This document shows, piece by piece, positions 51,156 through 64,000 of a stretch of 64,000 nt of DNA. Source of the DNA: Selenomonas ruminantium subsp. ruminantium ATCC 12561. Lineage in GTDB: Bacteria > Bacillota > Negativicutes > Selenomonadales > Selenomonadaceae. Position numbers and translations under genes: made by a program. The notes beneath the pieces were generated by a model. It was not told the DNA's origin and did not search any database. It worked only from the letters and a program-made list of their open reading frames with translations. Position 1 is the stretch's first letter. Each line of letters begins with the position of its first letter. The stretch covers positions 62,001-126,000 of the forward strand of contig NZ_AUJE01000002.1 of assembly GCF_000424065.1 (NCBI RefSeq). The letters are read 5' to 3'.

Positions 51156-51606
51156 GAAGCTGGAGAGATACTGTATGGAATTTTAGGGATTTATCCGGCG
51201 TAAACAGGTAAAAGCGTTGCGAGGTATTTTATGCCTATTTTCAGGACTGGGAAAATTTAACGCCACCATCGGGAAAGTTTTGGGGAGGAGAATCCGCTTG
51301 CCAAAAAGAAATATACTAGGACAAAAGTTGTTTTGGTTCTTGACAATGGCTTTTCAAAGCGAGAAAGAATAAAAACCAATATGCCCCCTACTATTCTCAA
51401 GGGGGCTTCGGAATTATTGCCGACAGAGGCCAATATGTACCTTTAAAAAGAACTCCTCCACTTTCTGTTTTGTTAAGCGGACAGCCGAGAAGCCAGCAAC
51501 TACAAGGACGTATGCTGATTTTTGTCTGACCTTGGGCAAAAAGGGCGTACAGTTCCAGATTGTGCGTCGGAGAGTGACCGAACGGCACCTCAAGGAGGTT
51601 TTCATC
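51156..51606. other. 450-bp gap with a terminator-like hairpin
   Basis: No open gene with a start and ribosome site until 51607. A GC-rich hairpin GCCCCC / GGGGGC at 51383-51406 with 12-base loop is followed by TTCGG, so it is only a weak terminator. A TTGACA at about 51340 has no good -10. The end carries AAGGAGG for the next gene. Confidence 0.45.
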
Positions 51607-53187
51607 ATGTCTTTTTGGGATATGCTACCGATTTCGAAGGAAATCCGTAAAAAGGAAGAACGTGTTAAGCAGTTGATGGATGATATTGATGCTTTAAGAA
51701 AAGGCTTTATCGAAATGCAACTGCAATACAAGGAAATAAAGGACGAGTATCAGCGACTTGACGACGGGTACGATGATTACGTTTCGAGAATAGAAACACA
51801 AAAGCAGCTCCTAAGGAAAGAAAAACAGGCATTAAAGGACAAACTTCAAAGAGATTGTGACGACCTGAAAAAGCAACGAGAGGAATTAAGGGTCAGCTAT
51901 AATACCGAACTTGAACAGAAGCAGGAAAAGCTCAGACAAGAGTGTGCCGACCTTATAAAGAAGAAGGATTACCTAGCTGACAACTATGCTGTTGAACTCG
52001 AAGAAACCCGGCAGAGAATAGAAAAAGAGCTGGAAAACGAGCACTGGGAACTTAAAGCAAGGATTGCGAGGGATAAAGAAGAAGTCATTGAATGGGACGA
52101 CAGGGTGCTGTTGCAGTCATTTGCTTTGTATAAGCCAAAATATCCCATGAGTTATTCACTGGAATATGAGGACTTGCTAAATGCTGTCAGAGAACGGCAA
52201 AAACAAATGATTAGAAATGACGCAGCCTGCATTTGCAGCACTACTTGGACTATCAACAACAGTAGGACAGCAGGTGATAAACTGATAAGGGATACGAAGA
52301 AGTTGCTGCTAAGGTCTTTCAACTTAGAGTGTGATGATATTGTTGGCAAGGTCAGTTACAGCAACCACGAAAGCTGTTTGAAACGCATGGAGAAATCATA
52401 CGAAACCATCAACAAATTGGGGAAAGTACACGCCATATACATAAACAGCGATTATTTGCAGTTAAAACGGGAAGAGATGTATCTGGCTTTGGAATATGCA
52501 CAAAAGAAAAAAGAAGAACGTGACCGCCAACGGGAGCTACGTGCCGAGGAACGGGAGAACCTTAGGATAAAGAAAGAGCTGGAGGCCGAGCGGGATAAGG
52601 TAAGGAAAGAGAAAAGCCATTACGAGAACGCACTGGAAGCTGCCAGACAACAAATCCGTGATATGGCAGAAGAGGAAAAGCAGGAACTCCTCGAAAGGAT
52701 TAGGGAGCTGGAGAATCACTTGCAGGAAGTAAACGACCACTTGAAAGATGTCGATTATCGGGAGGCGAATCAACGAGCCGGGTACGTTTATATCATCAGC
52801 AATATTGGCTCTTTCGGCGACGATGTATATAAAATCGGAATGACCAGACGACTCGACCCCATGGAACGAATCAATGAGCTTGGAAGTGCGTCCGTCCCGT
52901 TCAACTTTGATGTTCATGCGATGATATTCACCGATGACGCCCCAAAACTTGAAGCAGCATTGCACAGGGCGTTTGAAGACAAGAAGGTAAACATGGTGAA
53001 CACCCGCAGGGAATTCTTTAGGTGCTCCTTGGAAGAAATTAAGAAAGTTGTAAAAGAGAACTACGATGGCACGGCGGAATTCTATGAGACCGCCGACGCG
53101 GAGCAGTACAGGGAAAGTCTTCGTATGAGAGAGCAGATAAAAAACGAGATGGATAATATTGAATCAGACAATTTATGGCGGAGGTGA
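51607..53187 (+). CDS. Coiled-coil DUF4041 protein with C-terminal T5orf172 (GIY-YIG-like) domain
   Basis: 526 residues. A long coiled coil (about 10-175, for example KQLLRKEKQALKDKLQRDCD) leads into a DUF4041-like region (about 190-310, with LKRMEKSYETINKLGKVH), a second coiled coil to about 385, then a T5orf172 domain: AGYVYIISNIGSFGDDVYKI and GMTRRLDPMERINELG with EAALHRAFEDKKVN. T5orf172 is related to GIY-YIG nucleases and occurs in phage and mobile proteins. Function unknown. The ATG has AAGGAGG upstream. Codon use (AGG, CGA, GAC-rich) differs from nearby core genes. Two exported proteins follow within a few bases. Confidence 0.75.
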   Translation: MSFWDMLPISKEIRKKEERVKQLMDDIDALRKGFIEMQLQYKEIKDEYQRLDDGYDDYVSRIETQKQLLRKEKQALKDKLQRDCDDLKKQREELRVSYNTELEQKQEKLRQECADLIKKKDYLADNYAVELEETRQRIEKELENEHWELKARIARDKEEVIEWDDRVLLQSFALYKPKYPMSYSLEYEDLLNAVRERQKQMIRNDAACICSTTWTINNSRTAGDKLIRDTKKLLLRSFNLECDDIVGKVSYSNHESCLKRMEKSYETINKLGKVHAIYINSDYLQLKREEMYLALEYAQKKKEERDRQRELRAEERENLRIKKELEAERDKVRKEKSHYENALEAARQQIRDMAEEEKQELLERIRELENHLQEVNDHLKDVDYREANQRAGYVYIISNIGSFGDDVYKIGMTRRLDPMERINELGSASVPFNFDVHAMIFTDDAPKLEAALHRAFEDKKVNMVNTRREFFRCSLEEIKKVVKENYDGTAEFYETADAEQYRESLRMREQIKNEMDNIESDNLWRR

Positions 53188-53193
53188 ATCGAA

Positions 53194-54087
53194 ATGATAA
53201 GACGAATAGCCCTGCTGTGGGGACTGGCTTTTGTTCTGATGGTTCAGTCCATAGTATATGCAGTCCCCCATAACTGGCAATGGATTGAGTCCGATGATGA
53301 ATTTGGTTACTTTGTTGACATGGCAAATATCACCAAAACCACGAACTTCAATGGTAAAGTACGGGAGGCAGAACTATGGCTTAAAATGAAATATACCGCC
53401 AAAAGTGCAAAGGCCGTTCTCGAAGATTTTGACCACAGTTATATCAACGCAGATTTATTGGCAGACGACGGGGCGGGAATATTTAAGATAAAGCTGGACT
53501 TTCTACGGGGCTCGGTTCATGTGCTAAGCTCGTCCTTTCTGGATAAGAGCGGGAATGTCCTAGTAACCGACACGGACGCCTTCTATCAGTATGTCGATGT
53601 ACAGAGTTTTTATCGCCCTGTATTTACTTATGTGGAGAATCATTTGGCAGGGACTAACAGCTACTCCATATATAAAGACAAGAAAGCTAGACCGTGCGTT
53701 AATGCCAAAAACGTTGACGGCAATAAGGAATATACCGTTGTTAATCTTTGGCGGGCACATTATCTGAATAATGACGAAAGCAAAGCCGTAGTCCCTGTTT
53801 CGGTGTACACCTATGACGCCAACATGGAAAATGTGAGAACGTATTGCACGGATTGGTGCTATGACTTCAAAAACAATACTTATAATATTACAGCCGTAAT
53901 ACAAAGGAATAGCAATGATGAATGGGCTTATTACGATTTGGCAGATAACGGAGAAGTGTCCAAACCAACAGCCATTGTCCCGGATACGATAGGTGAGGCG
54001 ATAAAGAAACAGCTAATGAGCTTTGCCACGGGCCATAAGAAATTATTGCACCGATTGGACGGTGACGGATTAACGGTTGAGAGGTGA
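53194..54087 (+). CDS. Exported protein of unknown function (surface-adhesin-E-like N-terminal pattern)
   Basis: 297 residues with an N-terminal signal peptide (IALLWGLAFVLMVQSIVYA, cleavage near AVP). After it, WQWIESDDEFGYFVDMANIT and AELWLKMKYT resemble the repeated strand pattern of surface-adhesin-E-type domains, in which a two-part module of an exposed strand and a WxK strand is common. The C-terminal third has the same kind of pattern again (EWAYYDLADN, PDTIGEAI). It follows the DUF4041 gene by six bases and precedes a similar exported protein; transmembrane anchors are absent, so it is probably periplasmic or surface attached. Confidence 0.55.
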   Translation: MIRRIALLWGLAFVLMVQSIVYAVPHNWQWIESDDEFGYFVDMANITKTTNFNGKVREAELWLKMKYTAKSAKAVLEDFDHSYINADLLADDGAGIFKIKLDFLRGSVHVLSSSFLDKSGNVLVTDTDAFYQYVDVQSFYRPVFTYVENHLAGTNSYSIYKDKKARPCVNAKNVDGNKEYTVVNLWRAHYLNNDESKAVVPVSVYTYDANMENVRTYCTDWCYDFKNNTYNITAVIQRNSNDEWAYYDLADNGEVSKPTAIVPDTIGEAIKKQLMSFATGHKKLLHRLDGDGLTVER

Positions 54088-54093
54088 TTTGTT

Positions 54094-54798
54094 GTGAGGA
54101 AAGTTATTCATATGGGGCTTATTCTAGGGATTATACTGTCTGGATTGGCTTTTATGAATGGTATTATCGAGGCGGGAGGAACCCGATGGCACGTTATTCT
54201 GACGAGAGGGCAGGATACGGTAGCCGTTGATACGGAAACCATTGAATACGACAAGGGCGCTAATACTTTATCGTACTGGACGCAAACAAGGAGTCTGACA
54301 AGAGCAGGCACGTATATGGAAACACGGGATTTCTATGTATTGAACTTTAAGGATAGGACAACTACGCTAAAAAGGGTACTTACCTATATAGGGGATAAAG
54401 TAGAGGATACCGATGGTAAAGGGCAGGACGTAGTAAGCCCTGTATTACCGGACTCGATTGAAAATTTCGTTGTTGAGTATGCCCATAGAATCATGAATAC
54501 CCCAAAAGTATTCCCAACGCCTGTCGGTCAGTGGAACTGGGTGTTATCTACGGATAAGTACACGTGTACGATAAGCCCTGACGCTTTTGTAGATGACTCT
54601 GGCTACTACAATGTGTATATTCGAAAATCCTATTTAAGCGGCTTACAGAATTATGCCTTATACCGCTTTGATTTTTCAAACGACAGGATTATAGAAAAAG
54701 ATTTCCTTGGTAACGTAAGCTATAAGGATATTATTCCAGAGTCCATTGACGAAAAGATTTATAAAGCAGCGTATGAACTTTATGTGAAAAAGCAATAA
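54094..54798 (+). CDS. Second exported protein of the same kind
   Basis: 234 residues. GTG start behind GAGAGGTG. Hydrophobic N-terminal segment (IHMGLILGIILSGLAFMNGI) suggests a signal peptide. The mature part has VAVDTETIEYDKGANTLSYW and motifs PDSIENFV and PESIDEKIYKAAYEL that echo PDTIGEAI in the preceding gene, so the two probably share a domain type. No function is known to me. It closes the three-gene unit that begins at 51607. Confidence 0.55.
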   Translation: MRKVIHMGLILGIILSGLAFMNGIIEAGGTRWHVILTRGQDTVAVDTETIEYDKGANTLSYWTQTRSLTRAGTYMETRDFYVLNFKDRTTTLKRVLTYIGDKVEDTDGKGQDVVSPVLPDSIENFVVEYAHRIMNTPKVFPTPVGQWNWVLSTDKYTCTISPDAFVDDSGYYNVYIRKSYLSGLQNYALYRFDFSNDRIIEKDFLGNVSYKDIIPESIDEKIYKAAYELYVKKQ

Positions 54799-54992
54799 AA
54801 AGAGGGTAACGCCGTTATTGAAGTTGGCTTCTTTTGATATGGGAAAGACTCCCAGAGCGTCGGTCTTGAGCCGAATTTCTGATGTCTTTTTTGTTCGCCC
54901 GCCTTAACTTAACGGCATTCAGTCAAGGGCGGTGTGCGATTTTGGTCGCTTAGTTCTTAACTTAATGACAGTGGGCTGTAAGGCTGCCTTTT

Positions 54993-55835
54993 TTATTGTC
55001 CGTTATTACCTAAAAAATAACGTTTTATTACTTCTAAAACGCCGTTATGGTCATTGTCGCTTACGACCACATCGCAGATTTCTTTGATGGAGTCAGCAGC
55101 ATTTCCCATAGCGGCAGCCAGCCCGGCTGTTTGCAGGATTTCCAAATCATTCGGCGCATCGCCAACGGCAACGGTCGCGGCAAGGGGGATATTCAGCAGT
55201 TGACATAGTTCTTTCAGCCCGCTGGCTTTGGTGATGCCTTCGGGGGAAGCTTCCAGTCCCGTTCGTTCTGCCAGTACAAGGTTCATACCAAGACCGGCAA
55301 GGCGTTTGCGGCTGCGTTCACGCGAGGCCGTAGTGCGATGATAAAGGTTAATTTTGAGAATTTCACCAGCGTGTTCCTGTATGTAATGTGCTAAATCTTT
55401 CGGCCTGTCGCAGATACGTTCGTACATATCCTGATAGACGGCCATGGAAAAATCGTCCATGTGCAAAATATCTTGTTCGCGGGCTGCGGAAGCATTTATG
55501 GTAAGTATGTGTACCATAGCATCTTCTTCGCAGGCTGTTGCGAGTAACTTTTGACACTGTTCTACGGATAGCGCATGCGTGGTCAAGGGCTGTTCTTTGT
55601 AAAAATCATAAATCAAGCCGCCGCTTACCAATAGTCCATAGTGCATACCCTTAAAGGCATCACGGTAGTCGGCAAGTTCCGCCAGACCGCGGCCTGTACC
55701 AACGACAACCTCAATCCCTTGTTCCATCAGCTGCTGAATAGCCGCAGTTGTTTCAGGGGGAATCTGTTTGGCCGAAGTAAGCAGAGTTCCGTCCATATCG
55801 AGGGACAGCAGGCGGTAGTTATTTTCTTTAGACAT
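54993..55835 (-). CDS. Cof-type HAD-IIB hydrolase
   Basis: 280 residues of the Cof/YidA type. Motif I is LLSLDMDGTLLTSAK, the cap is of class IIB, and the C-terminus has VGDAPNDLEILQTAGLAAAMGNA with the metal-binding GD..ND. These are broad sugar-phosphate or FMN phosphatases in the cytoplasm. The ATG at 55835 is taken by family alignment. It is single, on the minus strand, next to plus-strand accessory genes. Confidence 0.9.
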   Translation of the reverse strand: MSKENNYRLLSLDMDGTLLTSAKQIPPETTAAIQQLMEQGIEVVVGTGRGLAELADYRDAFKGMHYGLLVSGGLIYDFYKEQPLTTHALSVEQCQKLLATACEEDAMVHILTINASAAREQDILHMDDFSMAVYQDMYERICDRPKDLAHYIQEHAGEILKINLYHRTTASRERSRKRLAGLGMNLVLAERTGLEASPEGITKASGLKELCQLLNIPLAATVAVGDAPNDLEILQTAGLAAAMGNAADSIKEICDVVVSDNDHNGVLEVIKRYFLGNNGQ

Positions 55836-55918
55836 AATCGTTCATCTCCGTAAAGTCACATAATGGCTAAATTATAATCCATTTATGTACGTTTTACCAT
55901 AGGTGAAAAATTCTCATT

Positions 55919-55941
55919 AAGCGCCAAGTGCGCTTTTTTTT
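55919..55941 (+). terminator. Orphan hairpin with T run
   Basis: AAGCGC / GCGCTT with a five-base loop followed by TTTTTTT. It points rightward although no plus-strand gene ends nearby; it may be a relic or the end of an unseen short RNA. Confidence 0.5.
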
Positions 55942-56045
55942 ATACATGTTTGGACACTTACGGCAGTCCTGTCTAAGCAAAGTCATTTCGTCTATGCTAT
56001 CATGTGAGGCATAGAGAAGTGAACGAGCGAAAGGGGATTGGCGTT

Positions 56046-56906
56046 ATGCAAAATGTTCAGCCTGAAATCCGTATCCATGTATTCCATACCGGCTGTGTAT
56101 GTGTGTCGCCCGGCCTGCCGTTTAAGGATGCAGAAAAAAATCCCAATCCGGTGCAGCTTACGTTATTGTCGTCTTATGGGCGTAAACAGCGCTTATGGCT
56201 GCCGGTTTCCGCCTATTTGATTGAACATCCACAAGGGAAAATCCTCGTGGATACGGGCTGGCATCGGGAAATCAGTCCTAAAGGGGAATACAGCCGCTGG
56301 GCGCAGATTCGTCATTTGGGGCTGGCGCATTATCTGCTGAATCAGGGTGTTTTGCCCTTGGGCGAATCGCTGGTCGAACAGTTAGCACGCAGAAATATCC
56401 AGCCCAAGGATATTGACTATGTACTGCTTACGCATTTGCATTCCGACCATGCCAGCGGCTTGCGGCAGTTGAAAGAGGCCAAACACATTCTCGTGAGTGA
56501 GGAGGAATGGCAGGATACGAAAGCACATGCGGAACGCTATGTGACCAGCATGTGGAAAGGCGTCAACATGGAAACGTTTGCATTTAAAGAAACAGGCCAG
56601 GGGCCAGTGGGCCGCAGTTTTGACCTGTTTGGCGATGGCAGTGTGGAAATGATTCAGATTCCCGGCCATACCAGCGGTTTGGCGGCGGTGAAAATCTCGC
56701 ATGGCGGCAAATTTGTCCTGCTATTTGCCGATGGCGGCTATGCAGAAAAATCCTGGAAGGAAATGATTCCGCGGGGAACCGCTCTTGATGCCCCGCAGGC
56801 TTATCGTTCGCTGCAATGGATTCATGATATGAGTCAAAAAGAGGAATGTCTGGAATCTTTGGCGAATCATAATATGGATGTAATTCCTCACGAAATTGTT
56901 TTGTAA
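56046..56906 (+). CDS. Metallo-beta-lactamase-fold hydrolase (AHL-lactonase-like)
   Basis: 286 residues. The zinc motif is H130-L-H132-S-D134-H135 in LLTHLHSDHASGL; further ligands are in IQIPGHTSGLAAV and LLFADGGYAE. The N-terminal AYLIEHPQGKILVDTGWH is typical of the N-acyl homoserine lactonase/AttM-like branch, but the same branch holds many hydrolases with other substrates. ATG at 56046 behind AAAGGGG; the frame is open 42 bases upstream without a ribosome site. No signal peptide, so cytoplasmic. Confidence 0.75.
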   Translation: MQNVQPEIRIHVFHTGCVCVSPGLPFKDAEKNPNPVQLTLLSSYGRKQRLWLPVSAYLIEHPQGKILVDTGWHREISPKGEYSRWAQIRHLGLAHYLLNQGVLPLGESLVEQLARRNIQPKDIDYVLLTHLHSDHASGLRQLKEAKHILVSEEEWQDTKAHAERYVTSMWKGVNMETFAFKETGQGPVGRSFDLFGDGSVEMIQIPGHTSGLAAVKISHGGKFVLLFADGGYAEKSWKEMIPRGTALDAPQAYRSLQWIHDMSQKEECLESLANHNMDVIPHEIVL

Positions 56907-57052
56907 GGGACGGTAAAGGCCTGGCGAGTCCCAATGAAGCGCTGATTTTGGAAATGGTCGCCGCCGAAGCCATTGCAGGATATACGTTTTGGCTGTCACA
57001 TCCTTACGAAACCAATGAGGACGAACCGTTAAGTAGTCGAAAATATCGATAA
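56903..57052 (+). pseudogene. Short remnant of an unknown gene
   Basis: An open stretch overlapping the lactonase stop codes for RDGKGLASPNEALILEMV, AAEAIAGYTFWLSHPYET and ends SSRKYR before a stop. It has no start with a ribosome site, and codon choice looks like coding sequence. It seems to be the tail of a gene whose front was lost. I do not recognise the family. Confidence 0.35.
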
Positions 57053-57092
57053 ATATGTATATAAGTGGACAAATATCTTATATAATATGCTT

Positions 57093-57325
57093 AACGGGCT
57101 GTTTCAAGCTCTAGTGACCGTGTTCGGCGAAAGCTGTTTGCGGGATGAACTAAGTTATCGGGATAAGTTAAAGACTCACCTGCGGATGTAAACCATCAGT
57201 CCGCTGCTCTGAGAGTGCCAACCAAGAAACACCGCTAATGTCCTGCGGGGATAACAGGGAAACACATGAGCTTCCTGACGACATGGGCAAGAAGGAAAAT
57301 TCTCCTGTAAAGGAAGGTGGCAGAG
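57093..57325 (+). ncRNA. Probable omega RNA (HEARO-type) of the IscB system
   Basis: About 230 bases of structured, non-coding sequence end at the iscB ribosome site and start codon. IscB proteins are known to be guided by an upstream RNA of about this size (the HEARO/omega RNA), with the guide at the 5' end and scaffold running to the gene. A TATAAT box at 57081-57086 could serve as its -10. Segments such as GCTGTTTGCGGGATGAAC, CCTGCGGATGTAAACC and TCCTGCGGGGATAACAGGG look able to form helices. Exact ends and the guide segment (inferred near 57093-57108) are not determined. Confidence 0.6.
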
Positions 57326-58570
57326 ATGCCCATAATTAAGAAATATGCGTTCGTTCTGGACGCAGAAGGGAAACGACTTGACCCCACTATCGAGCAGAAT
57401 GCCTGGCGGCTTGTCCGTCAGCATAAAGCTCGGCTGGTATCGAAGTTCCCGATGGTAATTCAACTAAATAAAGTCGTGGACAACCCAAATAACGATGAAA
57501 TACGCTGTGGCATTGACGATGGTGCGAATCATGTTGGGCTTGCGTTGGTTCAAAAGTGTTTGACCAAAAACAAGGTTGTATTCAAGGGAACTATCGAGCA
57601 ACGCAAGGTCGTCAAGCATTTGCTGACCGTTCGCCGTGGCTACCGCAGGTATCATAGATACCATAAGCAGTACCGCCCTGCAAGGTTCTTCAATCGTGCG
57701 TCTTCACGAAGAAGCGGCAGATTGATGCCGTCGATAATTCAGCGAAAACAAGCGACGCTTCGCGTAATCGACAGGCTCCGGCAATGGATTCGCATTGACG
57801 GCTACTGGTTGGAAGAGGTGAAAATTGACATTCGGGCTTTGACGGACGGATACAAGCCTTACCGTTGGCAGTATCAGAGGTCAAACCGTCTGGACAACAA
57901 TCTGCGTCTTGCAGCCATCTATCGTGACGGCTGCAAGTGCATGGAATGCGGCAAAGTCAAAACTCGTTTTGAGGTACATCACATTACTCCGCGAGAGGCT
58001 GGCGGTGCAGATACCATTAGCAATCTGATAACACTTTGCCCCAACTGTCATGCTAGAACATTTAGCAGGGAATCACAGTTTGCAGATAGGTACTACGCTT
58101 TGATTGGATCCGCAGGTCATGTCGAAGGGCTTGATGATGCCCAGCGTGTTATGCAGGGCAAGCATTGGTTCAAGAAACAGTTGCAGTTACGAGGTTCGTT
58201 GGTTTTGACAACTGGTGGTGATACCGCCAATAAACGTGAAGATTGGAATATTTCCAAGACGCATACCAATGACGCGGTTTGTATAACCGATTTGAAGCCT
58301 GAAAATATAGGCGTTGGGGAATGGAGCATTAAGCCTATGCGTCGAAAAAGCAAAGCTGGCGTTGATGAGGTTTGCGGTTTCCGTCATCGGGATTATGTGA
58401 CCTACACTTATCGCAATGGCGAAACTCATACGGGTTATGTTACAGCGATGTATCCTGACAAAAATCAGTTAAACTTCCAATCACCCACAAAGCATTGCAA
58501 ACGGGTTAATGCTCTGAAAACAAGGCTTTTGTGGAGATTTAATAAGATTTACTGGCTCAAATGTGCTTAG
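57326..58570 (+). CDS. iscB: IscB-type RNA-guided HNH/RuvC nuclease
   Basis: 414 residues. Split RuvC: motif [15 protein letters not shown] (D64), motif [13 protein letters not shown] (E163 or E164), motif [13 protein letters not shown] (H313, D316). An arginine-rich bridge helix, [20 protein letters not shown] (103-122), follows motif I. The HNH domain has C205-x2-C208, EVHHITP (H218/H219) and CPNCH (238-242). The N-terminus [14 protein letters not shown] replaces the usual PLMP tetrapeptide by RLDP. ATG at 57326 is eight bases after AGGAAGG. No tnpA transposase is adjacent. Such proteins, found on IS200/IS605-like elements, are ancestors of Cas9 and cut DNA matching the omega RNA guide. Confidence 0.85.
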
Positions 58571-58631
58571 AGATGCATATTTGAGTATATTTGACCATAT
58601 TTGACCGTATTTTTAAAAGGGAGGCAAAGGC

Positions 58632-59552
58632 ATGAAATTTTGTATCTTTGGTGCCGGGGGCACCGGCGGCGTGCTGGCAGCGTATTTGGCTATGGCCGGA
58701 AATGAGGTAACGGTGATTGCCCGCGGAGCGCATTTGGCAGCTATACAGGAAAAGGGGCTTACCCTGCGAACCAATCATCGGGGTACGGAGCAGATAAAGA
58801 AGGTAAAGGCCTGCACAGCGGAAGAGTATGCGGATATGCCCGATGTATTGCTGGTCTGTGTAAAATACTATAATATTGACGATGCCATTGCCTTTGCTCA
58901 GGAAAAGATGAATGCAGAGGTACTCATCGTACCGGTGCTTAACGTGTTCGGCACGGGCGGCGTGATGCAGGAGAAACTGCCGGAACTCACCTGTCTGGAT
59001 GGCTGTATCTATGTGATGGGCGAAATTGCCTCGCCGGGTGTTATCTATCAGTCGGATAAGATGCTGCGGGTAATTTTTGGCTATCGTCCGCAGCAGGAGG
59101 TTCGCTTGCGGGAGAAAGCGCAGGAACTGGAAACGGTCATGCAAAAGGCGGAAATCCGCGCGCATTTCAGTGATAACATCATCCGTGATGCCCTGCAAAA
59201 ATTTGCCTTTGTTTCGCCTGCGGCAGCGGCGGGAGCATATTTTAACGCCACGAGCGAAAAGTTTCAGGTGGACGGCCAGGAGCGTGAACTGTTCATTGGT
59301 TTGATTAAGGAAGTGGAAGCCTTGGGCCAAGCCATGGGCATTACGTTTACCGTAAATCTGGTGGAAACGGGGCTGAACATCATGGACGCGCTCAAGGCTG
59401 GCTCTACGATGTCCATGCAGCGGGATATTCAGCGGGGCGGCAATTCGGAATTTGCCGGACTGGTGAATCGTGTAGTGGAGTTGGGAACGGAATATCATGT
59501 AGCTGTGCCTTTGTATCAGCAGGTTGCGGACTGGGGTGCGAAAAATTTGTAA
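58632..59552 (+). CDS. Ketopantoate reductase-family (ApbA/PanE) protein
   Basis: 306 residues. N-terminal CIFGAGGTGGVLAAYLAMAG is the NADPH site; the catalytic-lysine helix near IRDALQKFAFVSPAAAAGAY and the late GSTMSMQRDIQRGGNSEF match 2-dehydropantoate 2-reductases. Several paralogues of this fold reduce other 2-keto acids, and no other pantothenate gene is nearby, so the symbol panE is not assigned. AGGGAGGC precedes the ATG. Confidence 0.8.
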   Translation: MKFCIFGAGGTGGVLAAYLAMAGNEVTVIARGAHLAAIQEKGLTLRTNHRGTEQIKKVKACTAEEYADMPDVLLVCVKYYNIDDAIAFAQEKMNAEVLIVPVLNVFGTGGVMQEKLPELTCLDGCIYVMGEIASPGVIYQSDKMLRVIFGYRPQQEVRLREKAQELETVMQKAEIRAHFSDNIIRDALQKFAFVSPAAAAGAYFNATSEKFQVDGQERELFIGLIKEVEALGQAMGITFTVNLVETGLNIMDALKAGSTMSMQRDIQRGGNSEFAGLVNRVVELGTEYHVAVPLYQQVADWGAKNL

Positions 59553-59560
59553 AAGGGTCA

Positions 59561-59595
59561 AAATTCGTCACGAAAAAGCGTGGCGAATTTTTTTA
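59561..59595 (+). terminator. Terminator after the reductase gene
   Basis: AAATTCGTCACG / CGTGGCGAATTT with a six-base loop, then TTTT; one mismatched pair in the stem. Confidence 0.85.
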
Positions 59596-59604
59596 GGGAT
59601 TATA

Positions 59605-59633
59605 TTGACATTGCGTCATTTTATAGCTATAAT
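59605..59633 (+). promoter_or_regulatory. Consensus promoter of the TetR gene, probable operator
   Basis: TTGACA, exactly 17 bases, TATAAT. The -35 region also forms the short palindrome TGACATTGCGTCA, and GATGTCA recurs downstream, which may be a TetR operator for self-control. Confidence 0.8.
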
Positions 59634-59691
59634 GCAATTAACATAAGTTACACGATGTCATTTTTGAAAAATAAATTGCAGGAGGCTGTTT

Positions 59692-60318
59692 ATGCCAAAG
59701 GTTTCAGAAGAAGTGCTGCTCGCGCGGCGGGAAGAGATTATTGATGCTTGTGCCAAGCTCTATGAGACGATGAATTTTAAGGATATCACGCTCAAAGAGA
59801 TTGGCAAGGTGACGACCTTTAACCGCACGGCCATTTACAACTATTTCAATACGAAGGAAGAAATTTTTCTCGCCCTGATGCAGCGGGAGTATGATTTGTG
59901 GGTAGCTGATCTGGAAGAGCTGCTGTCTGCACATGAGTCGTTAAGCCATGATGAATTGGCAGATGCCCTGTCCCGTTCCTTGGAAAAGCGGTCAAGGCTG
60001 TTGAAGCTTCTCTCCATGAATCATTTTGATATGGAAGGGAACAGCCGCTATGAGAATCTGGTGGAGTTCAAGCGTTCGTATGGCAAGTCCATGCAGGCGG
60101 TGCGTCATTGTCTGGACAAGTTTTGCCCGGAAATGAATGAAGTGGCCAAGCAGAGCTTTATCTATGCGTATTTCCCGTTTATCTATGGGATTTATCCCTA
60201 TGCCGTGGTGACGGAGGAGCAGAAAAAAGCGATGGCCGAAGCGGGTGTTGATTATAAGTATCTGTCCATCTATGAGATTTCCTATAATTGTCTGCGGAAG
60301 CTGTTAGGCGTGAATTAA
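59692..60318 (+). CDS. TetR/AcrR-family transcriptional regulator
   Basis: 208 residues. The N-terminal helix-turn-helix is ACAKLYETMNFKDITLKEIG and FNRTAIYNYFNTKEEIFLAL; the rest is the helical ligand-binding domain. It is the first gene after a consensus promoter with a palindrome and precedes an amidohydrolase and redox genes, so it probably represses its own operon. The effector is unknown. Confidence 0.9.
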   Translation: MPKVSEEVLLARREEIIDACAKLYETMNFKDITLKEIGKVTTFNRTAIYNYFNTKEEIFLALMQREYDLWVADLEELLSAHESLSHDELADALSRSLEKRSRLLKLLSMNHFDMEGNSRYENLVEFKRSYGKSMQAVRHCLDKFCPEMNEVAKQSFIYAYFPFIYGIYPYAVVTEEQKKAMAEAGVDYKYLSIYEISYNCLRKLLGVN

Positions 60319-60329
60319 GGAGGGATACC

Positions 60330-61391
60330 TTGAAACGGCGTGATTTTCTCAAAGCAGGTATTGGCGGGGCGTTTGCCCTTTGGGGGCTGGGGGCTATGCA
60401 GGAAAAGACGGCAATGGCAGCCGGCAGGGAAGCGCTCCCTGCCGGGCGCAAGATTGATGTGCATGCCCATGCAATTCTGCCGAGCTTTGTGCAGGGGCTT
60501 ACAAAGCTCGGCATTGATGCGGCGGCTGAGGAGGGTTATCCTTTGCCCGCCTGGTCGGAAGAAGCGCATTTGGCGTTTATGCAGCAGGCCCGGATTGATT
60601 ATACGGTGCTGTCGCCGGCAACACCGCATATCTATAACGGAGATGAAAAGCTGTCCTGTGAGGTAGCGCGGGAAATCAATGAGGAAACAGCCGCCCTTTG
60701 CCGCAAGTATCCGGATAAATTTGGCTTTGTGGCAGCCCTTCCCTTTCCGAGCAGCGAGGGCAGTATTGCAGAGATAAGGTATGCGATGGATAAGCTGGGG
60801 GCTTTGGGCGTGAAAGTTCCGAGCAATGCCGGAGGTATTTATCTGGGCGATGCACGCTGGGAAGCGGTCTTTGCAGAACTAAACCGCCGTCAGGCGCTGA
60901 TTATCCTGCACCCCAGTCCGGCAAGGGAACTTCCGCATAAAGGGACGGTGACGGGGCAGGTCATGGCGTTGTTTGAATATCCTGCCGATACCACGCGAGC
61001 CGTTGTCAACCTGCTCGCCAGTGGCATGCTGGAGCGTTATCCTAAGGTTCGTCTGGTCGTGCCGCACTGCGGTTCCTTCCTGCCTTATATGAAACAGCGG
61101 GCCAAGGCGATGTTTGCCATGCTGGCAGGCATGCAGATGATGAAGCCGGTGGATATGGAAGCGGGCATGAAGCAGCTTTATTATGATTTGGCTGGTGACC
61201 CCATGCCGGAGGCGATGGATATGCTGCTGAAGATTACCGATGAAGGTCATTTGCTCTATGGCAGTGACTTCCCCTATGTTCCGGCGAAAGCCTTGCTGGG
61301 CAAGAAGGCCGCTTTGGATAATGAATTGGCAAACAGGCAATGGCTGGCGAAAATATATTGCCAAAATTCGCAAGAGTTAATCTTTTCGTGA
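60330..61391 (+). CDS. Exported (Tat) amidohydrolase, ACMSD-like
   Basis: 353 residues. The N-terminus KRRDFLKAGIGGAFALWGLG is a twin-arginine signal. The body is a metal-dependent TIM-barrel hydrolase: KIDVHAHAILPSF (HxH), later LIILHPSP, VVPHCGSFLPYM and YGSDFPYVPAKAL, as in the aminocarboxymuconate-semialdehyde decarboxylase-like branch of amidohydrolases. TTG start at 60330, five bases after AAGGAGGG; upstream open frame overlaps the TetR gene. Substrate unknown; with the flavodoxin-type neighbours it may serve in the detoxification of an aromatic or quinone-like compound (inference). Confidence 0.8.
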   Translation: MKRRDFLKAGIGGAFALWGLGAMQEKTAMAAGREALPAGRKIDVHAHAILPSFVQGLTKLGIDAAAEEGYPLPAWSEEAHLAFMQQARIDYTVLSPATPHIYNGDEKLSCEVAREINEETAALCRKYPDKFGFVAALPFPSSEGSIAEIRYAMDKLGALGVKVPSNAGGIYLGDARWEAVFAELNRRQALIILHPSPARELPHKGTVTGQVMALFEYPADTTRAVVNLLASGMLERYPKVRLVVPHCGSFLPYMKQRAKAMFAMLAGMQMMKPVDMEAGMKQLYYDLAGDPMPEAMDMLLKITDEGHLLYGSDFPYVPAKALLGKKAALDNELANRQWLAKIYCQNSQELIFS

Positions 61392-61419
61392 TAATGCGTA
61401 TGTGTAAGGAGAGAAGACG

Positions 61420-61968
61420 ATGAAGGTTTTAGTTATTCATGGCAGCATGAGAAAAAATGGCAACACGGGAATCCTGGCGGACGAATTTATCCGCGGCGCG
61501 CAGGAAGCCGGGCATGAGACGGAGAAAGTAGAACTGCGGGATAAAACCTTTGGTGACTGCTATGGCTGCCGTGCCTGCCATAATAATGGCGGCACTTGTG
61601 TGCAGAAGGACGATATGGCTGAAGTGCTCGAAAAGCTAAAGGCTGCGGATGTTATCGTATTGGCATCCCCGCTCTATTACTTTACCTGGACGGGGCTCAT
61701 GAAGCGGTTTCTGGACCGTACCTATCCCTTGCTGCCAATTCTGAAAGACAAGGATTTTTATCTGCTTACCTTGGGCGGCGTGCCGGATAAGAAATTTATG
61801 GCCAATATTCTTTCGGATTTTAATATGTATGTGGGCTGTTTCAAGGAATTCAATCAGGTGGGCGTACGCAATGCAGGTGCCATTATCGGTACTTCGGCTT
61901 TGGCACCCGGTGCCATTCGTGAATCGGCAGCGATGCAGGAAGCCTATGAGACGGGCAAGAATTTGTAA
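61420..61968 (+). CDS. Flavodoxin-fold NAD(P)H-dependent FMN oxidoreductase
   Basis: 182 residues. FMN-binding start LVIHGSMRKNGNTGILADEF, then a cysteine pair in GCRACHNNGGTCVQKDDM and LASPLYYFTWTGLMKRFLDR. This is the iron-sulfur-flavoprotein/NADPH-dependent-reductase-like branch of flavodoxin-fold proteins. No signal peptide. Start at the ATG after AAGGAGAG; in line with the TetR-led operon. Confidence 0.8.
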   Translation: MKVLVIHGSMRKNGNTGILADEFIRGAQEAGHETEKVELRDKTFGDCYGCRACHNNGGTCVQKDDMAEVLEKLKAADVIVLASPLYYFTWTGLMKRFLDRTYPLLPILKDKDFYLLTLGGVPDKKFMANILSDFNMYVGCFKEFNQVGVRNAGAIIGTSALAPGAIRESAAMQEAYETGKNL

Positions 61969-61980
61969 GGGGGAAGAAAA

Positions 61981-62283
61981 ATGTTCATCATCAATCAGGT
62001 GTTAAAGGCAGACAAGATTCCGGCAGGTAAGGGCGAGGAGCTCTTTAAGCAACATATTGCCTGGTTTACCAAACATTTTGAGCAGGGCGATTTCCTGCTG
62101 GTGGGGCCGTATACCGACAAAGAGATGGCCGGGATTATGATTAGCGGCGCCGAAACGCGTGAAGCCGTGGACGAAATCCTGCGGGAAGATGTGTATTACG
62201 CAGGCGGCATGGCCGATTATGAAGTGCGTTCCTTTAAGGCCGCGATGATTTCGCCGTCCCTGGCTGACTGTGCAGGCAAATAA
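61981..62283 (+). CDS. YciI-family protein
   Basis: 100 residues with the ferredoxin-like dimeric fold of YciI: the histidine in LFKQHIAWFTKHFEQGDFL and the glycine-rich LLVGPYTDKEMAGIMI are the usual features. YciI-like proteins are thought to be small enzymes or binding partners for aromatic compounds. AAGGGGG before the ATG; 12 bases after the preceding gene. Confidence 0.8.
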   Translation: MFIINQVLKADKIPAGKGEELFKQHIAWFTKHFEQGDFLLVGPYTDKEMAGIMISGAETREAVDEILREDVYYAGGMADYEVRSFKAAMISPSLADCAGK

Positions 62284-62311
62284 GCAGCGGCATTGAGGAA
62301 AGGAAATCCTT

Positions 62312-62995
62312 ATGAACAGACGGGAATTTATACAGCTTGCCGGCACAGGTGCTATGACCTTGTTTCTTTCCGGCTGTGGTCTGGGCGCGCTGACTGGCGA
62401 AAAGAGCAGTAAGGAAGCAAAGGAATTTGTACCGGGAAGTGTTTCGGGAGGAAAGAACATGAAGATTGTGGTGATTACCAGCAGCCCCCATCCGCAAAAT
62501 GAGTCCACCTCGATTTATTTGGCAGACCGGTTCACCGAAGGGGCGAAAAGCGCCGGGCATGAAGTCTTTACCTTTGATGCGGCGCATGAGGAAACGCATC
62601 CTTGTCAGGGCTGTGACAAATGCGGCATGGATGGCCCATGCGTGTTCAAGGATGCCATCGAAAATACCCTGATGCCCAAGATGCTGGCGGCTGACCTTAT
62701 CGTGCTTACCACGCCGCTGTATTACTTTGGTATGTCGGCCCAGTTAAAGATAATCGTGGATAGGTTTTATTCGCGGACGGAAAAACTGCATGGCAAGAAA
62801 TCCATTATAATGGCTACGGCCTATAACAGTGCGGATTGGACGATGGAAGCACTGGCCAATCATTATGAAACGTTGGTGCGCTATATGGAATGGCAGGATG
62901 TCGGGCAGGTTTGGGCGACAGGCTGCGGCGCCCGCAGTCTGGTCGAAAAGTCATCCTTTGCCGATATGGCGTATAAAATAGGCGCCAATTTGTAA
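62312..62995 (+). CDS. Exported flavodoxin-fold oxidoreductase with Tat-like lipoprotein signal
   Basis: 227 residues. The N-terminus NRREFIQLAGTGAMTLFLSG has a twin-arginine-like motif and ends at a cysteine in LSGC, a lipobox. The mature protein has FMN-binding VVITSSPHPQNESTSIYLAD, cysteines in CQGCDKCGMDGPC and the LTTPLYYFGMSAQLKIIVDR segment, homologous to the cytoplasmic protein two genes upstream. It is likely exported folded with FMN and anchored to the cell envelope. Confidence 0.8.
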   Translation: MNRREFIQLAGTGAMTLFLSGCGLGALTGEKSSKEAKEFVPGSVSGGKNMKIVVITSSPHPQNESTSIYLADRFTEGAKSAGHEVFTFDAAHEETHPCQGCDKCGMDGPCVFKDAIENTLMPKMLAADLIVLTTPLYYFGMSAQLKIIVDRFYSRTEKLHGKKSIIMATAYNSADWTMEALANHYETLVRYMEWQDVGQVWATGCGARSLVEKSSFADMAYKIGANL

Positions 62996-63005
62996 GAGAA
63001 AATAC

Positions 63006-63036
63006 TTGACTTGAAGTTTACTACAAGTGTTAGAGT
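63006..63036 (+). promoter_or_regulatory. MerR-type promoter with 19-bp spacer and operator
   Basis: TTGACT (63006) and TAGAGT (63031) are 19 bases apart, longer than the normal 17. Between them lies an interrupted palindrome ACTTG...CAAGT. Long spacer and palindrome are the mark of promoters activated by MerR-family regulators (NmlR/AdhR-like). No merR gene is in the window. Confidence 0.6.
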
Positions 63037-63074
63037 GAACATAGATGAAATTGGTGATGAAAGGGGATAACATT

Positions 63075-63704
63075 ATGCGAAAACTATGGATTGCCTGTTT
63101 GGGCGTGTTGATGATTTTAGGTCTGGTGGGCTGTGGTACAGAGTCGGGCAAGACGGCAGAAAAGGCCGCACCGGCACCTGTGCAGACTACGGCACAGGCA
63201 GACAGCAAGGCACCTGCGGCTAAAGGCAAGATTCTCGTGGCGTATTTCTCGGCCACGGGCAATACCCGCACGCTTGCAGAGAATGCGGCTAAGGCTTTGA
63301 ATGCGGACCTCTACGAAATTCGTCCGGAAGTTCCTTATAGCAAAGAGGACTTGAACTATAATGACGAAAGCACTCGCGCTACAGTGGAACAGAAGAACGA
63401 CAGCGCCCGCCCGAAACTGGCGGATAAGAATGCACCGATTGCGGACTATGATACCATCGTACTGGCATATCCCATCTGGTGGGGACAGGCGCCGCGCATC
63501 ATGGATACCTTCGTGGAAAGCTATGATTTCACGGGCAAGAAAATGACTGCCATCTGCACCTCCGGCGGCAGCGATATCGGCACGAGTGCTGACTATCTGC
63601 AGAAGCTGACCAAGGGCAAGGCTGAATGGAAGGCCGGCAAGCTGTTCTCTCCGCAGGCCAAAGCCGAAGACATCAAAAGTTGGTTTAATGGTCTGGGCTT
63701 ATGA
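63075..63704 (+). CDS. Lipoprotein flavodoxin
   Basis: 209 residues. Lipoprotein signal LWIACLGVLMILGLVGC, an Ala/Pro-rich linker, then a flavodoxin: ILVAYFSATGNTRTLAENAA binds FMN phosphate, and IVLAYPIWWGQAPRIMDTF and TAICTSGGSDIGTS follow. ATG at 63075 behind AAAGGGG; an upstream ATG at 63045 is in frame without a good ribosome site. Its own MerR-type promoter separates it from the preceding operon; its stop overlaps the start of the next gene. Confidence 0.85.
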   Translation: MRKLWIACLGVLMILGLVGCGTESGKTAEKAAPAPVQTTAQADSKAPAAKGKILVAYFSATGNTRTLAENAAKALNADLYEIRPEVPYSKEDLNYNDESTRATVEQKNDSARPKLADKNAPIADYDTIVLAYPIWWGQAPRIMDTFVESYDFTGKKMTAICTSGGSDIGTSADYLQKLTKGKAEWKAGKLFSPQAKAEDIKSWFNGLGL

Positions 63705-64000
63705 ATAAGTTCAAAATAAATTTTCGCATGACAGTGACGGCACTTTTGCCGTTGCTGTTTTTGCCCATTATGTGCTTCCATTATGTGCCCAAGGTACTGC
63801 ATGAGGTGCTGGGGATTTTATGGTGGCTGTTGGTGCTCATACATATCGGTCAGAATCGGCAATGGTTCGCTTCACTTAAACGCGGGCGCTGGTCAATTTT
63901 TCGCCTTATCGGTACCGTAATTGATATTTTACTGTTGGTGGTGCTGCTGGTAATGGTGGGCGCAGGTTCCGGCATTTCCAATCATCTGTTCAAGGAAATC
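63701..64000 (+). CDS. DUF4405-like membrane protein (3' partial)
   Basis: The first 100 residues only; the gene runs off the window. The start overlaps the flavodoxin stop (ATGA). At least two or three membrane helices: TALLPLLFLPIMCFHYVP, LGILWWLLVLIHIGQ and TVIDILLLVVLLVMVGAG. The histidine in VLIHIGQNRQW and the general plan recall DUF4405 or cytochrome-b-like membrane proteins, which fits pairing with an exported flavodoxin. Confidence 0.6.
   Translation, partial: MNKFKINFRMTVTALLPLLFLPIMCFHYVPKVLHEVLGILWWLLVLIHIGQNRQWFASLKRGRWSIFRLIGTVIDILLLVVLLVMVGAGSGISNHLFKEI

Follow-up and report, generated by a model that had tools for sequence, protein, structure and literature searches.

How does an iscB gene with no transposase gene beside it keep its place in a genome and reach new ones? 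The question is raised by a locus in the window analysed here, that is, the whole stretch of 64,000 nucleotides from Selenomonas ruminantium subsp. ruminantium ATCC 12561 (contig NZ_AUJE01000002.1, positions 62,001 to 126,000 of the forward strand). Our data suggest that the IscB gene and the omegaRNA upstream of it alone probably make up an RNA-guided homing-type OMEGA element, which sits within a host gene's Shine-Dalgarno sequence, in the same orientation as that gene, and for which GGRR is predicted as the target-adjacent motif. The features on which the argument depends are listed below (window positions, strand in brackets), with the neighbouring genes last.

57019..57020 (+), left-end GG core, beginning GGACGAAC; start of the sequence common to loci L004-L007 and L018
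57019..57325 (+), omegaRNA scaffold; covariation, 17 sequences
57020..57029 (+), 5' strand of helix 1 (guide-adaptor stem); pairs with 57094-57103
57094..57103 (+), 3' strand of helix 1; covariation
57068..57302 (+), sub-threshold HEARO (RF02033) match; 21.9 bits
57326..58570 (+), iscB; open reading frame, family models, alignment
58571..58620 (+), right end of the element, finishing TTTTTAAAA before the GG; common to L004-L007 until about 58602, by sequence beyond
58619..58624 (+), Shine-Dalgarno GGGAGG of the downstream gene, overlapping the right-end GG core; sequence, ATG spacing, relatives of the gene
56999..57018 (+), predicted guide, last 20 nucleotides of host sequence; position of helix 1, flanks differing between copies
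58632..59552 (+), downstream gene of the PanE/ApbA family; open reading frame, family match
56004..56906 (+), upstream gene of metallo-beta-lactamase fold, a neighbour outside the element; open reading frame, family match

The ends of the element were revealed by its relatives (genomes and loci are cited by our working numbers, G and L). The window copy and five Selenomonas and Mitsuokella relatives (L004-L007, L018) have their sequence in common from 57016-57019 onward, and their flanks differ. At the other side the shared sequence reaches about 58602 in four of the five, L018 being cut by a contig end. Taken up to its own right end, the element of the window, IscB plus omegaRNA, spans 57019-58620, about 1.6 kb; a preliminary description of the locus had drawn its left border at 57061, too far to the right of the shared left end. 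With common ends, each with a GG/AGG core, at different sites, this unit is, as far as sequence comparison can tell, a mobile element.

A search for the left-end pattern in 189 genomes of the family, counting matches with zero or one mismatch, yielded eight in G010 (several at contig ends), four in G186, two in the window's genome and one each in G005, G012, G013 and G061; matches with two mismatches were dropped as chance-like because a reversed control pattern gave similarly low numbers. Relatives are infrequent, with eight of the 189 family genomes (E 1e-40) and five of 398 genomes sampled from the phylum (E 1e-60), and none appeared in the plasmid collection at E 1e-30. Near-identical copies can occupy different sites of one genome, as in the single-contig G362, where the identity between two copies is 98.5% over 1366 bases. 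The window's genome, with a single copy of iscB, also carries a mini-element of about 430 bp (L140; G000:C23, minus strand), which retains both ends and a full omegaRNA, 93.7% identical to that of the window, has no iscB and sits before rpmB. It is a possible trans-acting second guide for the window IscB. Another IscB-less mini-element is present in G010. In G186, two left-end remnants have lost their interior; L149 is now fused to the Shine-Dalgarno of rpmH, L150 to that of a different gene. In L008/L025, the omegaRNA upstream of iscB lacks its left end, and the remainder is joined to apparent coding sequence.

The iscB open reading frame (ATG at 57326, end at 58570) encodes 414 amino acids, or 417 from an alternative GTG start at 57317. 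The RuvC motifs, bridge helix and HNH domain recognized earlier in this protein were all recovered: it scores 265.9 bits with the NCBIfam model guided_IscB (NF040563), for which the cut-off is 175, and 146.6 and 53 bits with the Pfam domains RRXRR (arginine-rich bridge helix) and HNH. Eight columns, D64, E163, H218, H219, N233, H242, H313 and D316, are invariant in an alignment of 18 clade members; we take them, from general knowledge of the family, to belong to RuvC-I, RuvC-II, HNH and RuvC-III. The closest solved relative is HfmIscB (PDB 9k2z; 561.9 bits), with 254 of 405 aligned residues identical (62.7%). The N-terminal PLMP-domain region can be aligned with HfmIscB and with chains of the OgeuIscB type. 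The replacement of PLMP by RLDP, reported in the preliminary description as an alteration, is real, but its oddness is not: relatives have PLSP, PLAP or LLDP, and since xLxP occupies this position clade-wide, RLDP is not a defect. Judged by these alignments, the window IscB is complete and keeps its catalytic residues. In a tree, 33 clade proteins were split from 10 other IscB-like sequences with branch support of 83/75, the long branches of those 10 making the deep order unsure.

The structured RNA proposed to precede iscB was supported by covariation. Seventeen leaders were aligned, including two that belong to iscB-less copies; of the 45 pairs predicted, 28 had changed on both sides, with 98.4% of the cells paired and a covariation score of 0.523, against 0.175 for shuffled alignments and at most 0.088 for slid partners. 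Single-sequence folding of the window leader gave no structure signal (z +0.81). The HEARO covariance model suggested earlier as a check does match, at 57068-57302, but weakly, with 21.9 bits under a gathering score of 83; at gathering scores, Rfam detected no RNA anywhere in the 64-kb window and HEARO none of 20 related loci. HEARO has been annotated by depositors at such loci in some Staphylococcus phage records.

Helix 1 of the scaffold, the guide-adaptor stem (alignment columns 2-11 with 99-108; eight pairs, of which five have changed on both sides), starts just one base in from the left end of the element. In the accessible part of a study of IsrB (PMC9581776), the guide-adaptor region is also of importance for the transposon. 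As the scaffold starts at the left end of the element, a 5' guide must be sequence of the host leader or flank, and we infer that the guide of the window copy is the last 16-20 nucleotides of the host leader before the element. For this copy the assignment is anatomical, because its own empty site was not found. The predicted window guide plus GG (18 nucleotides) matches one viral contig and the predicted guide of the mini-copy (16 nucleotides) matches two. We rejected these contigs as targets, as the surroundings show no resemblance and matches so short are, by our own estimate, about as frequent as chance would give in a collection of this size.

Evidence for the insertion site comes from empty alleles in close relatives, which show presence and absence of the element at the same site in three phage cases and one Selenomonas case. 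The window's own genome carries an empty allele of the L007 site, ATACTGGGGAGGAAATCTTCATG, with all 340 bases matched at 99%, and the relatives L099, L100 and L103 are likewise empty. Phage JDF86 differs from phiSA_BS1, which has the empty site CCTATAAAGGAGAAAAGACTATTATG, by a clean 1545 bases. Comparison of phage Golestan101 with three relatives gives the empty site AGACAGTAAGGGGATACTTGTAAATATG; here the gene that follows is not the same in filled phages as in empty ones. In all three clean cases the element lies inside an existing Shine-Dalgarno, and three or four bases (GGA, AGGA, AAGG) are shared by both junctions. L005, for which only a diverged sister genome is available, provides a weaker empty site. 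Beside the element of L039 (4298-5035, compared with L043, L046 and L047), the downstream PhoH-type gene is of a different version than in the empty-site phages, perhaps through co-conversion of the flanks.

The right end of the window element abuts the Shine-Dalgarno and start codon of the PanE/ApbA-like gene. Among eight other genomes tried, GGAGG precedes the start of this gene in L085, L086, L090 and L091, AAGGGGGA does so in L088, L087 has no clear motif and two were misaligned. Across the clade, 30 of 34 right ends are followed by a start codon within 3-16 nucleotides that opens a reading frame of at least 40 codons. With a stricter criterion (ATG, at least 60 codons, 5-14 nucleotides) the figure is 28 of 34, against 506 of 6493 AGG sites (7.8%). 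This stricter baseline was made after a first, lenient one (4075 of 18232, 22%). The count excludes L032 and L025, which duplicate other sites, L018, which lacks its right end, L041/L042, whose ends have diverged, and L153, for which no right end was given. In 17 further viral loci a lenient blind rule finds a gene start in 14, compared with 30 of 81 other open reading frames in the same loci (p 0.0002). In one of the 14 (L192) the start so found lies inside the element, a GTG after GGAGGGAGG being visible, and one of the misses (L198) has AGGAGG and an ATG before a short reading frame. The genes that follow copies include secG, hemC, nadB and mtaB, besides rpmB (mini-copy) and rpmH (beside a remnant), as well as DNA polymerase I (polA) and a TolC-family gene, both below the whole-protein cut-off and searched as 400-residue pieces. 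Several of these genes are presumably essential.

The same junctions lead to the predicted motif. After the left flank, GGRR is found in all 21 tabulated sites with non-hairpin right ends, and GG only in the 10 with hairpin ones; these 31 sites (the 34 right ends except L008, L013 and L035) comprise three real empty sites, the rest being rebuilt from both flanks or just the right one. In the non-hairpin lineage GGRR separates empty sites (GGAG, GGGA, GGGG) from occupied ones (GGAC); this Shine-Dalgarno core is the predicted target-adjacent motif. HEARO elements are said to integrate before ATGA or GTGA.

Several observations weigh against this reading. The 34 right ends were for the most part picked by eye, homology or an empty site determining the others, and L013 and the viral loci L209 and L210 depart from the pattern. 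With the iscB stop as its starting point, the lenient blind rule did not discriminate between the clade (24 of 30) and other IscB (7 of 11). A stricter rule separated them, with 28 of 47 for the clade and 1 of 11 for other IscB (p 0.003; other open reading frames, 34 of 286), but it was chosen only later. For this reason the Shine-Dalgarno location is claimed for this clade and on exact junctions. It could also be partly a matter of survivorship. The hairpin-ended lineage, showing GG rather than GGRR, may have a shorter motif. Finally, the comparison of flanks with empty sites that the preliminary description had recommended became our main result through other copies, while the window copy itself has no empty allele, its left flank being found in no other of the 22 genomes of the genus that were compared. 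This flank (56907-57018) is an open frame without family match (39 residues tried), perhaps a gene remnant.

How, then, would such an element behave? A host promoter would transcribe the leader, the omegaRNA and iscB, since sense insertion at the Shine-Dalgarno places the left end in the transcribed leader, and the last 16-20 nucleotides of that leader would become a host-derived guide. The ribonucleoprotein would cut an unoccupied copy of the same locus, where the core GGRR just 3' of the guide match acts as the motif, and repair from the occupied copy would restore or spread the element. The occupied site would be spared because the guide match there precedes the GGAC of the left end. As the downstream gene would retain a Shine-Dalgarno at normal spacing, sites before essential genes would be tolerated. 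A jump to a new site would write a new guide, a step for which a further activity would be required. The mover would be either a helper not recognized here or mostly IscB-driven homing.

The preliminary description had noted that no tnpA is adjacent, and we found no transposase open reading frame (Y1 TnpA) within the element and, judging by eye, none among those listed for 53000-64000; the flanking genes are those of metallo-beta-lactamase fold and PanE/ApbA. In phage Golestan101 a coding sequence annotated as transposase lies 1.4 kb downstream of iscB, outside the element. The absence had been presented as odd. It is ordinary, as few HEARO/IscB genes are near TnpA according to the accessible part of PMC9755519.

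A partner elsewhere in the genome has nevertheless to be weighed. In the best surviving alternative, the element is a non-autonomous one of the IS200/IS605 type: a Y1 transposase in trans would move it into NAGG sites, IscB would only prevent its loss, and the Shine-Dalgarno bias would result from the target motif plus purifying selection acting on insertions at other places. One lineage does have right-end hairpins, which we take, from general knowledge, to be like the ends of IS200/IS605, and Y1_Tnp matches were found in seven of 11 carrier genomes, with 10 matches in that of the window. For TnpB, the available part of PMC11870625 equates the motif with the insertion site of the transposase. 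However, the other four carriers (G013, G172, G186 and G362, of which G013 and G186 are 86-88% complete) gave no Y1_Tnp match, and they include the single-contig G362 with its two near-identical copies. Furthermore, five resident IS605-type left junctions aligned in the window's genome start after TTAT (TTAT/CCAAAA), unlike the left end of the element, and the resident transposase was set aside as the obvious partner because of this difference. A target of three or four bases should, besides, often land outside a Shine-Dalgarno. We regard this explanation as doubtful, if worth pursuing.

A serine-recombinase element like IS607, with IscB as a site-guarding passenger, is improbable. Crossover at a GG core, which IS607 uses, would explain GG at both ends, and the overlap between filled and empty alleles contains GG in all three empty-site cases; yet the element has no recombinase (the carrier genomes were not searched for serine recombinases), and a GG core by itself leaves the Shine-Dalgarno location unexplained. 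Least credible of all is a dead or domesticated IscB, a relic with neither mobility nor nuclease function. The single iscB copy of the window's genome and the interior-deleted remnants of G186 might point to it, but the reading frame and catalytic residues are intact, the omegaRNA covaries, the window's genome also has a mini-copy, and elements that are nearly identical are found at different sites; immobile domestication was rejected since relatives sharing these ends occupy different sites.

The RNA-guided homing element that we favour can be followed into viruses. Relatives were found in nine of 50,697 phage records, all of them Staphylococcus phages, and on viral contigs (10 loci in one search and 27 in another, overlapping), two of which exceed 200 kb. 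A fourth phage case (L041, phage MRSA13; positions 4190-4350 of L041/L042 compared with L045) deviates from the others in that the element is found where a RusA-like resolvase gene begins. To its right some of the target sequence occurs a second time, and within the predicted guide match this right copy has TCG in place of the AGT of the left copy, both of them serine codons. The locus also shows a Shine-Dalgarno and a start codon that are new. The altered copy may be a natural hint of cleavage in vivo. Fifty-six phage records match the L041 region, seven of them holding at least 80% of it; in the other rows inspected 56% is covered and the element is missing.

We put forward more tentatively, and with rather low confidence, that IscB itself drives the spread without any transposase. 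In this clade the element would then be a self-reprogramming RNA-guided homing element. With the Shine-Dalgarno core as its motif, it could land safely at almost any gene start and would gain a transcribed guide whenever it landed in a leader, with IscB-less mini-elements riding in trans and phages carrying the element between hosts and sites.

A nuclease family ancestral to Cas9 thus appears to be tied to one of the commonest gene-start signals of bacteria. If the motif holds, it would explain both the non-lethal residence before essential genes and the supply of a promoter for the guide, it would give a nuclease of 414 residues whose motif contains GG, and the natural empty and filled alleles of phages would offer a testable case of RNA-guided homing. 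The anatomy of the element and its Shine-Dalgarno insertion site are the new part of the finding: the open-access library searched gave no prior report of IscB elements so placed, most subscription papers being outside this scope, and a prior description is possible. What the accessible part of the IsrB paper says of Shine-Dalgarno sequences concerns the gene's own (PMC9581776). Elsewhere in the window, 51532-53187 encodes a long coiled-coil protein whose C-terminus resembles, by eye, a T5orf172/GIY-YIG-type domain.

Among known systems, HfmIscB (PDB 9k2z) has the same match length and domain order as the window IscB, with PLAP at the PLMP position. It was studied as an isolated complex, and its chain has an alanine at the first HNH histidine, presumably a deliberate mutation. 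With the HEARO RNA and other IscB (OgeuIscB, KraIscB) the element shares the RuvC-HNH RNA-guided nuclease, the upstream omegaRNA and, in the portion of PMC9755519 at hand, the rarity of a nearby TnpA; it differs in that its RNA, like that of 20 of 20 relatives tested, scores below the Rfam HEARO gathering score. The motif of OrufIscB is NTAAA/ATAAA-like in the part of PMC13180657 available, against the GGRR predicted for this clade. TnpB, in the retention or gene drive of IS200/IS605, takes its guide from the flank and cuts the unoccupied site, as far as the accessible text of PMC11870625 goes, and the same is predicted here. The window element differs from it in having no transposase and in landing in a Shine-Dalgarno. 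The homing endonucleases of phages, as generally known, offer a further parallel, with intergenic presence and absence between close phages and, as in L041, an altered target beside the element; in the element described here, however, specificity would come from an RNA guide derived from the flank, which could change with each new site.
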